A stretch of 51,355 nt of DNA. Source: Ignavibacteriaceae bacterium. Its GTDB lineage: Bacteria > Bacteroidota > Ignavibacteria > Ignavibacteriales > Ignavibacteriaceae. Location of the stretch: the NCBI GenBank assembly GCA_031292455.1, contig JARLHC010000023.1, positions 1-51,355 of the forward strand, given 5' to 3'. The notes under the pieces were generated by a model. It did no database searches. It was not told the DNA's origin and was given only the letters and a program-made list of their open reading frames with translations. This document shows, piece by piece, positions 13,080 to 49,048 of this stretch. A program made the translations under genes and the position numbers. Numbering within the stretch: the first letter of the stretch is position 1; each line of letters begins with the position of its first letter.

Positions 13080-14438
13080 TTATGGAGTAGATTTAGAGAC
13101 AGCAAGAGTATTATTATTATCAGCAATCAGAAGGTCACTTAGATCAACCAATCCATCGCCGTTCAGATCAGTAACTACATAGCCGGAAACAGCACTTAAA
13201 TTATCGTTATCTTCCGCAAGCAGGTCAGACAGATCAACAAGTCCATCATGGTTTATATCCCCGCTATAAAGGCACAGCTTAGTTCCTTTCAAGACAAGAT
13301 TGCCACCATAAGCTTTAGCCTGAGAGGTAGTAAAATCATAATTAAGGGTGTTGGAAGTAAAAGATTGTGCTGATGCACTCCATGTCTCTACAGCGTTTCT
13401 ATGTTTGATCACAATAAAATATGGAGTACCATTTACAGCGGTTGAAAAACTAAAAGTGCCAGTGCCTGCCGTATTAAGAATTCCTTTTTTTGAATCCACT
13501 AATGCATAAGGAGAAGCAGAATTATGCAATTCAACCGTTACAGAATCTGATACCATTAAAGTTCCATTATACAGTCCCTGAATTAATGCAGTAAGAGACA
13601 GGGTAACCTGAGCGGCTCCATTCGGGTCAGGGCTGCCTGCATCAACCCAGGCAGTATAGATGAGATCCGCAACAGATTTAGAAGCATTCTTCATTAATAA
13701 GATAGTTTGACTGCCACATAATTCCCAATATTTCTGAAGATAAGTTGTTCCACTATTCCTGCCGGCATAGGCAGTTGCCACCTTATCACCATTAAGCACC
13801 GAATCCACATATTTATGATCGAGATATATAAAATCGAAAACATAATTACTGATATTTGAGACATAGGAAGCTTTGTTATTTGAATAAACTATGCTGCTCT
13901 GATACTGCCCGACAAGAGTAGTTTCATATCTTGAATGGACACCGCTCTGGCCAGTTAACTGGCCATCATAATTTTGAGTAATATGAAGGGGCTGATGACC
14001 GTCGCCAACATAGTGGCCGAGATCTGCAGAGAAAAGCATTGCCTTATGCCAGTTTTTTTGCAGGAACGCGATGCGAAGGGAATCTACAGTCCATTGGATT
14101 GCCCAGGGAAGAGTACCTTCATTAACTACATAAGCAGAGCCATGAATAATAACATTAGTATCATAACTTTGGCTGATATATCCGTTTGAAATAAATTCGG
14201 AGTAATTATCTATATCGATAAAATGTTTAGGAGATTCAGAAGGATCACTGCTTTTTCGAGTATCAGCATCTGAGGCATGAGCAGTTAAAGTATCGCTCCA
14301 ATAAGAAGGAAAATTCATAGATGAGGGGAAACAGACTGTAATGTTTTGATTTATGATTTTATGCCCTGTACTCCCCCATCCTGCAAATAGGAGTATAGAA
14401 ATAACTGACACTGCAATTTTAGCAAAAATATTCTTCAC
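13080..14438 (-). CDS. Secreted S1/P1-type zinc nuclease with C-terminal dockerin-like module
   Basis: A 452-residue secreted protein. The signal peptide should be cut just before WGSTGHKI, exposing the N-terminal Trp that binds zinc in S1/P1 nucleases (PF02265). Other zinc-site motifs follow: HASDADTRK, PKHFIDIDNY, DLGHYVGDGHQPLH and HSRYE. The nuclease part spans about residues 22-275. Residues 280-452 form a second module: a beta-sandwich-like region (LTALIQGLYNG to NYDFTTSQAKAYG), then two Ca-binding dockerin-like loops (GDINHDGLVDLSDL and TDLNGDGLVDLSDL). The same module occurs at the N-terminus of the large secreted protein at 45704. It likely degrades extracellular nucleic acid, although phospholipase C activity is possible in this superfamily. 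No type IX C-terminal signal is seen. Confidence 0.85.
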   Translation of the reverse strand: MKNIFAKIAVSVISILLFAGWGSTGHKIINQNITVCFPSSMNFPSYWSDTLTAHASDADTRKSSDPSESPKHFIDIDNYSEFISNGYISQSYDTNVIIHGSAYVVNEGTLPWAIQWTVDSLRIAFLQKNWHKAMLFSADLGHYVGDGHQPLHITQNYDGQLTGQSGVHSRYETTLVGQYQSSIVYSNNKASYVSNISNYVFDFIYLDHKYVDSVLNGDKVATAYAGRNSGTTYLQKYWELCGSQTILLMKNASKSVADLIYTAWVDAGSPDPNGAAQVTLSLTALIQGLYNGTLMVSDSVTVELHNSASPYALVDSKKGILNTAGTGTFSFSTAVNGTPYFIVIKHRNAVETWSASAQSFTSNTLNYDFTTSQAKAYGGNLVLKGTKLCLYSGDINHDGLVDLSDLLAEDNDNLSAVSGYVVTDLNGDGLVDLSDLLIADNNNTLAVSKSTP

Positions 14439-45289: not shown

Positions 45290-45703
45290 CTATTTGGAAA
45301 AAATGTTATACTTTAACTTCCAGGACTATTGTCTCAAATCGGGAATAACTGACCGAAAATAATATTTATTATTTACTTAAAATAGATATTTTAGTTTTCT
45401 ACCAGTGATTGCGACATAAATTCTTCGGCAAAGATAATTATCCTGATGGAATATAAAATAAAATTTTATTGAATATTTTATAATTTTTGGATAGATTATA
45501 CACGATTTATATGTAATAACCGGGGATTTTCAAAAAGGTTAACAATTTGTCTGCGTTCAAATTTAACAATCAGTATTTGCAATTTTTCCTTCTTTCAAAA
45601 GTACATAAGCAGATTTTATCTCATCCCGATTATTATCATTTTGGCATGAGTATTGAGGTATATTATTAAAAAAGACTATCTTTTTAAATTAAGTGAGATT
45701 ATA
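45290..45703. other. Intergenic region, no gene recognised
   Basis: A 414-base AT-rich stretch between the tRNA terminator and the large secreted protein gene. The only open frame is a short in-frame extension of the next gene from TTG 45653, which lacks a signal-peptide pattern before the real start. It must hold the promoter of that gene, but no convincing -35/-10 pair or structured leader was found by eye. Confidence 0.5.
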
Positions 45704-48700
45704 ATGAGACACAAATTACTACTAACAACAATCTTAATAATTGGATTTTTACTTCCCAATTCTTTTCCCCAGCAGAAACAGATTCCAAATGCTAAGAATC
45801 AGATGAAGTTAACAGGTGAGAAGATTAGCAAAGATTGGAATAATAAACAAAACGTATCATTATCAAGTCAGAGTCCGTTAAGTTTAACGATTACTGCATT
45901 AATACAAGGACTTTACAATGGAAGCATTCAGAGCAGTGTAAATCCAATTACAGTTAAAGTGGAATTACATGATGCTACAACCAAGGATGGAATCGAAGCG
46001 CAAAACGGAATTTTAAGCAGCACAGGAGTCGGAACTTTCAATTTCAATAGTGCAGTAAACGGTACACCATATTATATCGTAATTAAATCGAGCAACACTA
46101 TAGAGACATGGAGTGCTAATACACAAAGTTTTTCATCAGGAACACTTAGCTACGATTTTACAACTTCAGCGTCTAAAGCTTATGGCAATAACCTAGCATT
46201 AGTAGGCTCCAAATATTGTATATACAGCGGCGATATTACTCAGGATGGATTAGTTGATTTATCTGATTTAGCACCTGTAGATAATGATAACAGACTTGCT
46301 GCATCAGGAAATGTTATTACAGATTTAAACGGTGACGGCCTTGTAGACTTAAGCGATCTTCTTATAGTTGATAACAATAATATGCTTGCTGTTGCATCAG
46401 CTACTCCTTCCGGCGTACCTCCAGAAAGTTTTAATTATGCGGGACAAACCTATCATACAGTATTAATTGGAACCCAATATTGGCTAAAGGAAAATCTTAA
46501 TATAGGCACAATGATCAGCGGATCTCAGAGTCAAGCAAATAACAGCATCATAGAGAAGTATTGTTATAATGATCTTTCTTCAAACTGTGCAACATATGGT
46601 GGTTTATACCAGTGGGGTGAGGCGATGCAATATGCAGCTAGTGGAATTGATATACAAGGGATCTGTCCTACCGGATGGCATTTACCGACCAGTAATGAAA
46701 TATCATATTTAGACAGTGCTGTTACAGGTAATTCCGATGCATTAAAGTCAAAAGGATGGGGAGTAGATATTGGAGCGGGCACAAATTCAAGCGGTTTTTC
46801 AGCATTTCTTGCCGGACTCCGTCTTACTGTAAGCGGTGCCTATTCGAGTTTAGGAACAGACGGCGATGGTTATTTCTGGAGTTCCACAGAGAGCAGTACA
46901 AGAAATGCTAACTATATGGATCTTTCCGCATATGATAATACTATTTATCAATATTCTGTAGCAAAGGATTATGGATTTAGCGTACGTTGTGTTAAGAATG
47001 GTTGGATATCGCTGCAATCACCAAATGGAGGTGAGAGTTGGGGAGTAGATTCAACACAAAACATAACTTGGACAAGCAGTAACGTAGCAAACATTAAATT
47101 AGAATTTACAACAGATAATGGAACAACCTGGTCAACAATTTCGGCTTCAACCCCTGCCACACAAGAATTATACAGCTGGGTAATTCCCCATACACCATCA
47201 ACACAGTGCAAGGTAAAATTGAGTGCTGTAAGCGACACTACCATTCAAAGCATTAGTGCAAATGTTTTCACAACATGGGTACCAACAATCTCTATAACTT
47301 CGCCGATTGGGGGAGAGAACTGGAAAGTGAACGATATTGATTCAATCAAGTGGGTGAGCACTCATACAGCAAATGCAAAGATAGAATTTACAACAGATAA
47401 CGGGACTAATTGGACAACTATTATTGCCTCAACACCGGCGTCAACCGGAAATTATAATTGGACGGTACCTTTTACTCCTTCTATTAATTGCAGAGTAAGA
47501 GTTAGTAATGTAAGTAATTTAAATATTAACAGTACAAGTCCTAATGTATTTACAATATCTAATCCTTCCTGCCCCGGGATAGACACTGTTGTTTATGAAG
47601 GACAAACTTATAATACTGTTTTGATAGGAAATCAATGCTGGTTAAAAGAGAATCTTAACGTTGGAACCAGAATAAATGGAATTGTAGCTCAAACAAATAA
47701 TGGAATAGTAGAAAAATACTGTTATAATAATAATCCTGCCAACTGTACTACTTATGGCGGATTATATGAATGGGCAGAAGCAGTTCAATATCAGAATGGT
47801 GCATCAAATTCAACCTCTTTAAATCCACCATTATATGGACATATACAGGGTATCTGTCCGACAGGATGGCACCTTCCGGATACAACCGAGTTATCTACGT
47901 TAACGAATGCAGTAAATAATGACGGGAACTCATTAAAAGCAATCGGCCAAGGATTTGGTTCAGCGGCTGGAACAGATCTTAATGGTTTTTCAGGATTATT
48001 AGCAGGAACCCGCTATTCGGATGGATCTTGGGGTTCATTGGGACTTTACACGTTCTATGTAAATACCACAGAAGCAGATGCAGCCAATGTATACTATATT
48101 GAATTAGGTACCGATTTCAGCAACATCTTATTTGATAAAAATTCTAAAGAATACGGACGCAGTGTTCGCTGCATAAAAGATGGATCGTTATCACTGCAAT
48201 CACCAAATGGAGGTGAAAGCAAGGAAGTTGGTTCCACTCAGAACATAAGCTGGATAAGCAGTTATGTTACTAACACCAAATTAGAGTATTCAACCAATAA
48301 CGGTACATCCTGGACAACAATTATATCGTCTACACCGGCTTCAGCAGGAAATTACAGTTGGACAATCCCGAATACGCCATCAACCCAATGCAAAGTAAAA
48401 ATAAGTGATGCTAATGATACCACATTGAAAAGTATAAGTGCTAATGTATTCACTATTGTACCTCTCCCATCAGTAACAATCACGTCACCTATAGGAAGTG
48501 AGGACTGGAAAGTTGGTGAGACTGACTCAATTAAATGGACAAGCGTTAATGTGACAAATGTCAAATTAGAATACACTACAGATAATGGTACATCATGGGG
48601 GGCAATAGTGGCCTCAACATCTGCATCAGCCGGACTTTATACCTGGACAATTCCCAATACTCCTTCAGTAAATTGTAAAGTACGTATAAGTGATGCAGCG

Positions 48701-49048
48701 GATACAACAATAAACAGTACAAGCGCGAATGTTTTTACAATTGAGACAATACCGGTACCGACTATTTCTATCAATACACCAAATGGCGGCGAAGATTGGA
48801 AGGTAAGCGATGCTGATTCAATCAAGTGGACAAGCAGTAATGTATCTAATGTCAAAATTGAATACAGCACAGATAATGGCGGGACCTGGTCAACAATTAT
48901 TGCATCAACACCAGCATCAGCCGAATTATACATATGGACAATTCCGGATACTCCTTCGGTAAATTGTAAAATACGAATAAGCGATGCTGATAATTCAAGC
49001 ATTAATAGTGAAAGTCTTAATATTTTTACGATATCGAGTCCAATTTAA
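45704..49048 (+). CDS. Large secreted protein: dockerin-like module, two FISUMP domains, five Ig-like repeats
   Basis: A 1114-residue secreted protein. ATG 45704 is chosen because it opens the signal peptide (LLLTTILIIGFLLPNSFPQ). Residues of about 60-235 form the module shared with the nuclease at 13080: ITALIQGLYNGSI through SYDFTTSASKAYG, then GDITQDGLVDLSDL and TDLNGDGLVDLSDLL. Two FISUMP domains follow (about 240-430 and 625-835), each with GQTYxTVLIGxQxWLKENL, TYGGLYxWxEA and GICPTGWHLP. Five Ig-like repeats of about 90 residues (SPNGGESW to ANVFT) lie two between and three after the FISUMP domains. It is likely a surface adhesin or binding protein. No catalytic site or type IX sorting domain is visible. 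Confidence 0.9.
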   Translation: MRHKLLLTTILIIGFLLPNSFPQQKQIPNAKNQMKLTGEKISKDWNNKQNVSLSSQSPLSLTITALIQGLYNGSIQSSVNPITVKVELHDATTKDGIEAQNGILSSTGVGTFNFNSAVNGTPYYIVIKSSNTIETWSANTQSFSSGTLSYDFTTSASKAYGNNLALVGSKYCIYSGDITQDGLVDLSDLAPVDNDNRLAASGNVITDLNGDGLVDLSDLLIVDNNNMLAVASATPSGVPPESFNYAGQTYHTVLIGTQYWLKENLNIGTMISGSQSQANNSIIEKYCYNDLSSNCATYGGLYQWGEAMQYAASGIDIQGICPTGWHLPTSNEISYLDSAVTGNSDALKSKGWGVDIGAGTNSSGFSAFLAGLRLTVSGAYSSLGTDGDGYFWSSTESSTRNANYMDLSAYDNTIYQYSVAKDYGFSVRCVKNGWISLQSPNGGESWGVDSTQNITWTSSNVANIKLEFTTDNGTTWSTISASTPATQELYSWVIPHTPSTQCKVKLSAVSDTTIQSISANVFTTWVPTISITSPIGGENWKVNDIDSIKWVSTHTANAKIEFTTDNGTNWTTIIASTPASTGNYNWTVPFTPSINCRVRVSNVSNLNINSTSPNVFTISNPSCPGIDTVVYEGQTYNTVLIGNQCWLKENLNVGTRINGIVAQTNNGIVEKYCYNNNPANCTTYGGLYEWAEAVQYQNGASNSTSLNPPLYGHIQGICPTGWHLPDTTELSTLTNAVNNDGNSLKAIGQGFGSAAGTDLNGFSGLLAGTRYSDGSWGSLGLYTFYVNTTEADAANVYYIELGTDFSNILFDKNSKEYGRSVRCIKDGSLSLQSPNGGESKEVGSTQNISWISSYVTNTKLEYSTNNGTSWTTIISSTPASAGNYSWTIPNTPSTQCKVKISDANDTTLKSISANVFTIVPLPSVTITSPIGSEDWKVGETDSIKWTSVNVTNVKLEYTTDNGTSWGAIVASTSASAGLYTWTIPNTPSVNCKVRISDAADTTINSTSANVFTIETIPVPTISINTPNGGEDWKVSDADSIKWTSSNVSNVKIEYSTDNGGTWSTIIASTPASAELYIWTIPDTPSVNCKIRISDADNSSINSESLNIFTISSPI

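Follow-up and report, generated by a model that had tools for sequence, protein, structure and literature searches.

A module shared by two proteins of the window

What could be the function of a protein module that closes a nuclease with a putative signal peptide and stands near the beginning of a large FISUMP protein in the same stretch of DNA? The window, i.e., the whole stretch of 51,355 nucleotides analyzed here, encodes both proteins, and a reading of its sequence alone had proposed that they share a mobile sorting or surface-attachment unit. The features concerned, by position in the window, are the following:

13080..14438, minus strand: gene of the S1/P1-type nuclease with the module at its C terminus; GTG start, N terminus resembling a Sec signal peptide
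13617..14438, minus strand: signal peptide and S1/P1 catalytic region
13083..13604, minus strand: shared module, copy 1, whose exact end is the C terminus of the protein (...STP-stop)
13302..13604, minus strand: N-terminal beta-sandwich half of the module, copy 1, predicted to be Ig/transthyretin-like
13083..13280, minus strand: dockerin-like half of the module, copy 1
13224..13259, minus strand: predicted Ca-loop 1 (D-I-N-H-D-G-L-V-D-L-S-D), from its sequence and conservation among copies
13134..13169, minus strand: predicted Ca-loop 2 (D-L-N-G-D-G-L-V-D-L-S-D), from its sequence and conservation among copies
45653..49048, plus strand: large secreted-type protein with signal peptide, module, two FISUMP stretches, and Reelin-like repeats
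45704, plus strand: likely ATG start of the large FISUMP protein
45884..46408, plus strand: shared module, copy 2, in an N-terminal position
46211..46408, plus strand: dockerin-like half of the module, copy 2
46460..46996, plus strand: first FISUMP (Fib_succ_major) domain, downstream of the module

When both ORFs were compared by BLASTP, 116 of 206 positions were identical, with 4 gaps (E = 4e-65), confirming that the module is common to the two proteins along its length. It is C-terminal in the nuclease, where it ends at the stop codon, and lies near the N terminus of the large protein, in which the signal peptide is followed by the module and then by the two FISUMP stretches. All the motifs that the sequence-only reading had quoted, together with the two Ca-loop repeats, were found in the sequence. 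The matching residues are approximately 276 to 452 in the nuclease and approximately 76 to 252 in the large ORF; the range of 60 to 235 given earlier for the latter was counted from the ATG at 45704. The S1/P1 nuclease label of the window ORF also holds, though it is weak in Pfam, with a match to S1-P1_nuclease below the cut-off (E = 2.9e-4; 21.2 bits versus 29.5). At its C terminus, the FISUMP protein carries repeats that match Reelin_subrepeat-B of Pfam (window positions approximately 48180 to 49040), and these C-terminal repeats match parts of five ORFs of the same genome that bear a type IX secretion system (T9SS) tail (L210, L219, L237, L248, and L249).

A predicted beta-sandwich followed by a dockerin-like half

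The module comprises approximately 175 residues, with a predicted beta-sandwich half followed by a half that carries the two 12-residue Ca-loops. It reached no cut-off of Pfam-A or NCBIfam in the two window proteins, nor did ten tested members of a wider family (see below) reach one of Pfam or NCBIfam, so that no known family of these collections covers the whole module at a curated cut-off. Matches of the module profile in the PDB were led by dockerins, with best E values of 1e-4 for a profile of 13 copies and 3.2e-4 for one of 50 copies; they cover the dockerin-like half, and few extend further. In the 50-copy alignment (A5), chosen by hand with 10 copies from the window's own genome and 40 from the family f8, Asp was found at positions 1, 5, and 12 of Ca-loop 1 in 49, 43, and 50 of the 50 rows, respectively, and at the same positions of Ca-loop 2 in 50, 45, and 50. 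The likeness to dockerins that had been noticed in the window is borne out for the C-terminal half and, judged by sequence, the module has dockerin-type paired predicted Ca-loops with conserved Asp residues.

Type I dockerins (PF00404) and the family NF041540 ("GC-type dockerin domain-anchored protein") likewise have two 12-residue Ca-loops with Asp at positions 1, 5, and 12. However, the two window copies score 13.8 and 12.8 bits against the PF00404 cut-off of 22.9, and a D-N-D-N or D-N-N-N stretch after each loop sets the module apart from both families. The best wider-family member reached 22.6 bits with PF00404, and with NF041540, whose cut-off is 29, a wider-family member scored 15 bits.

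In structure predictions, the dockerin-like half had a pLDDT below 50 within the module model and of 43 alone (three sequences, modeled without Ca2+), and residues 1 to 100, which form the sandwich, had block values of 64 to 91, except for residues 11 to 20 at 42. A fold search with the sandwich gave middling Z scores to many folds, CueP being first (Z = 8.3), and broad Ig/transthyretin-like matches. The model also aligns to residues 156 to 250 of 4fl4_I (Z = 5.9) and of 3kcp_A (Z = 5.8), a segment that presumably includes the X-module, but many unrelated folds reach the same scores. The module may be arranged like the X-dockerin of cellulosomal scaffoldins, i.e., as a beta-sandwich plus a dockerin-like pair of Ca-type loops. 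In the X-dockerin of CipA (an X-module plus a type II dockerin; PDB 2b59, 3kcp, and 4fl4), a beta-sandwich precedes paired dockerin loops at the C terminus, whereas the module sits on varied, non-cellulosomal cargo and the likeness between the two is weak.

Copies of the module in the genome, the class, and the phylum

With the nuclease copy as the query, 17 places in the window's own genome match the module at E <= 0.001, and an alignment of 13 copies (A2) again gave 17 matches. The pair in the window is thus not a chance pair, in line with the earlier claim of a mobile unit with further copies. Three of the module ORFs are cut at their C-terminal side by contig ends. Among the 14 with a visible end, 30 residues or fewer follow the module in nine (the window nuclease, L018, L019, L021, L022, L023 on the minus strand, L026, L028, and L029); it is N-terminal in three (the window ORF at 45653 and two in L025), internal in one (L020), and followed by a T9SS tail in one (L027). 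The window's genus holds six N-terminal or internal copies (three FISUMP proteins, L020, and two in L185), and in these six proteins, all of which lack a T9SS tail, the module departs from being an always C-terminal domain. In the three FISUMP proteins (that of the window and the two in L025), the module sits between the signal peptide and the FISUMP domain, and the two L025 genes adjoin each other on contig C62. A single-sequence scan of named relatives yielded one locus (L031; JAEUSI010000012.1, Ignavibacteria bacterium), and no viral relatives of the module were confirmed.

Across the class, A2 matched at E <= 0.001 in 124 of 391 genomes, with at most 8 candidates scored per genome; within the family f8, G116, G209, and G239 gave no match. 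Fuller scoring counted 17 copies in G000, 5 in G382, 6 in G180, 78 in G132, 99 in G155, and, with 150 of 159 candidates scored, 133 in G178; G132, G155, and G178 belong to another family of the class than that of the window. In a sample of the phylum, A5 matched 38 of 395 genomes, including 9 that do not belong to the class. Because A5 represents one branch of the wider family, this count is on the low side for that family as a whole.

The position of the module was recorded in 56 regions (36 of G155 and 20 of G178) that hold 92 of the 232 copies; since the regions were picked from the best-scoring listed matches, this sample leans to strong matches. The protein ended within 15 residues of the module match in 77 of the 92 and after 16 to 130 further residues in 11, so that the module was terminal or short-tailed in 88; a T9SS tail followed it in one (L083), and three were cut. 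Proline was the last residue in 74 of the 76 terminal copies that reach profile position 170. Large proteins of several f8 genomes have in common a charged tail of approximately 60 to 80 residues after the module, which carries an I-Y-x-x-x-[KR]-[NS]-like motif (L034, L038, L040, L041, L076, and L112).

As one branch, the module belongs to a wider family (hhalign 99.9%, E = 8.9e-31), other members of which were found at 15 further loci; these loci represent 13 taxonomic families, including four from outside the class. The wider family, too, is C-terminal in the loci examined. Eleven of the 15 proteins have Val, Leu, or Met followed by Pro at their end, with zero to two residues beyond; the other four have no such ending, or a different one in a less surely read frame. 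None of the 15 has a T9SS tail by our own profile. The wider-family profile matches 2b59_B (E = 0.0076) and 3kcp_A (E = 0.014). One member, a secreted-type ORF of 787 residues in G033 (L266, contig C14, positions 148 to 2511), has two Pfam cohesins followed by the wider-family domain and ends ...TLVP-stop; its genome has SprA. The order of cohesins and then a terminal X-dockerin-like domain resembles that of a CipA-type scaffoldin.

Module and T9SS tail in the same genomes

The sequence-only reading had assigned the module to a lineage without visible T9SS sorting signals on these proteins. This stands for the two window proteins, which neither PF18962 (type A) nor PF13585 (type B) matches at E <= 1, but not for the lineage, since the own genome has 102 matches to PF18962 (Por_Secre_tail) and has SprA. 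T9SS tails number 76 in G382 and at least 150 each in G132, G155, G178, and G180. As a discriminator of module genomes, T9SS presence proved of little use, being near universal in the class (SprA in 379 of 391 genomes).

Tail ORFs were detected with a profile grown from one tail of the own genome, which may miss divergent tails. By this profile, the own genome has 98 tail ORFs, 17 module ORFs, and 1 with both, and 120 loci, some of which repeat a gene, hold 163 module ORFs and 70 tail ORFs with an overlap of 2. The proteins that combine module and T9SS tail are those of L083 and L027. The module looks like an alternative to, or a replacement for, the T9SS tail.

Like the module, the T9SS type A C-terminal domain (CTD; PF18962/TIGR04183) stands at the C terminus of signal-peptide proteins with diverse extracellular-type domains, occurs in many copies per genome, and has a sharply defined end; the two alternate on S1/P1 nucleases. 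In contrast to that CTD, the module is about twice as long, has a dockerin-like half, and occurs in N-terminal and internal positions in one genus. By a simple hydropathy rule, a signal-peptide-like start was assigned to 68 of the 75 complete ORFs with the module and to 18 of 21 with a T9SS tail, compared with 26 of 77 neighbors; the rule needs an ATG and therefore misses the window nuclease with its GTG start. Pfam domains found on 74 cargo parts included propellers, S8, M1, M14, and M23 peptidases, endonuclease I, phosphoesterases, and lectin-like domains. No partner gene emerged beside the module genes, no family being seen in more than 2 of the 77 neighbor ORFs scanned (89 found).

Natural exchanges of tail and module on the same cargo

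The catalytic part of the S1/P1 nuclease has relatives in 148 of the 391 class genomes. We classified 42 nuclease ORFs, taken from 30 loci (one per genome, best first) and from hand-chosen regions: 35 end in a T9SS tail, 4 in the module (one of them a duplicate), and 3 in neither. In this enzyme family, the module substitutes for the tail immediately downstream of the catalytic domain. The own genome has three T9SS-tailed paralogs of the window nuclease, with 68 to 72% identity to it, and in two of these paralogs approximately 90 other residues separate the catalytic part from the tail. The G132 genome encodes a nuclease with the module next to one with a T9SS tail. The nuclease tree (40 rows after two were dropped, with a root set for drawing only) requires the module label to change three times, each time on account of well-supported branches. 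The simplest history would be three independent tail-to-module gains among the S1/P1 nucleases; gene conversion between paralogs of the window's genus could reduce these three events to two.

Further exchanges were found in the own genome on other cargo, with 59% identity over 561 of the 569 cargo residues of one module protein and 39% over 399 of the 417 of a second. Another case, cut by a contig end, has 71% identity over 79 residues.

A candidate address tag

High copy number, terminal position, an exact end, near exclusivity, and replacement of the tail are marks of an address tag, and the dockerin-like half together with the scaffoldin-like relative suggests docking. The sorting or attachment role first proposed for the module seems to be its best reading, and we consider it somewhat likely that the module is an X-dockerin-like address tag interchangeable with the T9SS CTD. 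Such a tag would be used on Sec-signal-peptide proteins in place of the type A CTD; after Sec export, a partner would recognize it and place the protein extracellularly or at the cell surface. We favor a Ca-dependent mechanism in which the dockerin-like half docks to a surface receptor, which in module-rich genomes would not be a recognizable cohesin. The six N-terminal or internal copies of the window's genus speak against a signal that is strictly C-terminal and fit docking better than a T9SS C-terminal signal. It is possible, if doubtful, that Ignavibacteria have a second C-terminal address system beside the type A tail, with relatives elsewhere in the phylum. In such a system, up to 133 proteins per genome would carry an X-dockerin-like tag with either a dedicated receptor other than a cohesin or a dedicated T9SS shuttle, and cargo would switch between the two tags in evolution.

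No earlier description of the module was found in the open-licence literature, a scope that leaves out most subscription journals. Our results suggest that a protein address label not described before is used in addition to a well-studied secretion system; what appears to be new is a putative dockerin-like C-terminal tag where a T9SS tail would be expected. Because T9SS cargo is recognized by its tail, secretome predictions would overlook proteins that are sorted by a different tag. Should the module be an address tag, a destination could be predicted for 78, 99, and 133 proteins in three genomes. Closely related enzymes that differ in their tag, which in one case (G132) lie side by side, are a ready comparison of the effect of each tag.

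Alternatively, the module could itself direct export by the T9SS, as an additional CTD class next to A, B, and C that is read by SprA and a shuttle. This explanation, which we regard as somewhat unlikely, overlaps with that of an address tag, as the latter is compatible with the T9SS or with another outer membrane route. It would account for a mostly C-terminal module that substitutes for type A tails and hardly ever occurs together with them, and several CTD classes with different shuttles are known (PMC10202324 and PMC12618676). Every one of the 35 genomes with a strong module match (E <= 1e-30 with A2, a line drawn after the results had been viewed) has SprA, as do 123 of the 124 genomes with a match of any strength, a co-occurrence that says little given SprA in nearly the whole class. 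The exception is G108, in which the module match is weaker and SprA is unmatched; this genome is 87% complete. Moreover, N-terminal and internal copies could hardly serve as a C-terminal signal, and the counts of the PorV family do not follow the number of modules: they are 7 to 11 in eight module-rich f8 genomes and also 7 to 11 in eight f8 genomes with few or no copies, and 11 to 19 in five f1 genomes with modules versus 13 to 22 in four without a match, so that no PorV-family expansion tied to module number was found in these 25 genomes.

A Ca-stabilized terminal domain for adhesion, carbohydrate binding, or self-binding, with no sorting role, is quite unlikely. The mixed positions in the window's genus, the broad matches of the sandwich to Ig/transthyretin-like folds, and the fusion to FISUMP domains are consistent with it. 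However, an accessory domain would be expected upstream of a T9SS tail, like the repeats of the FISUMP protein in the five T9SS-tailed ORFs, whereas the module mostly takes the place of the tail and ends in a nearly invariant residue.

Search for a cohesin-like receptor

The sequence-only reading had suggested a search for a cohesin-like partner, and none came to light: the PF00963 profile, which could miss a highly divergent cohesin, gave no match in the window's own genome (96.7% complete) or in the nine genomes with the most module candidates (G070, G097, G103, G132, G155, G171, G178, G205, and G243, the last 67% complete), a further difference from the X-dockerin of CipA. Cohesins were found in 247 of the 391 class genomes at E <= 0.01, with 213 over the cut-off; G382 and G180 are among the relatives that bear them. 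They were present in 11 of the 35 strong-module genomes versus 236 of the 356 others (Fisher p = 8e-5, too small a value because of shared descent, since 26 of the 35 belong to the family f8).

Signal-peptide enzymes that end in dockerins, similar to the module proteins, have been inferred for "Candidatus Stygibacter" (Cloacimonadota), which has a cohesin scaffoldin, unlike the module-rich genomes, in which no cohesin was matched; the scaffoldin-like protein is said to bear a C-terminal surface-attachment domain (PMC8542988). For Melioribacter, most CBM-bearing enzymes are reported to have Por sorting domains, whereas cellulase genes are reported to have no dockerins (PMC3534657). Classical docking, in which module proteins would plug into cohesin scaffolds, could draw on the dockerin-like loops, the cohesins of the class, the G033 protein with its two cohesins and C-terminal wider-family member, and the dockerin enzymes and scaffoldin inferred for "Ca. 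Stygibacter", yet the unmatched PF00963 in the window's genome and the nine module-richest ones and the lower frequency of cohesins in strong-module genomes make it very improbable.

Among the 12 cohesin loci L062 to L073, 11 have an ORF with a T9SS tail, which suggests that the T9SS may export scaffold-like surface proteins in the class.
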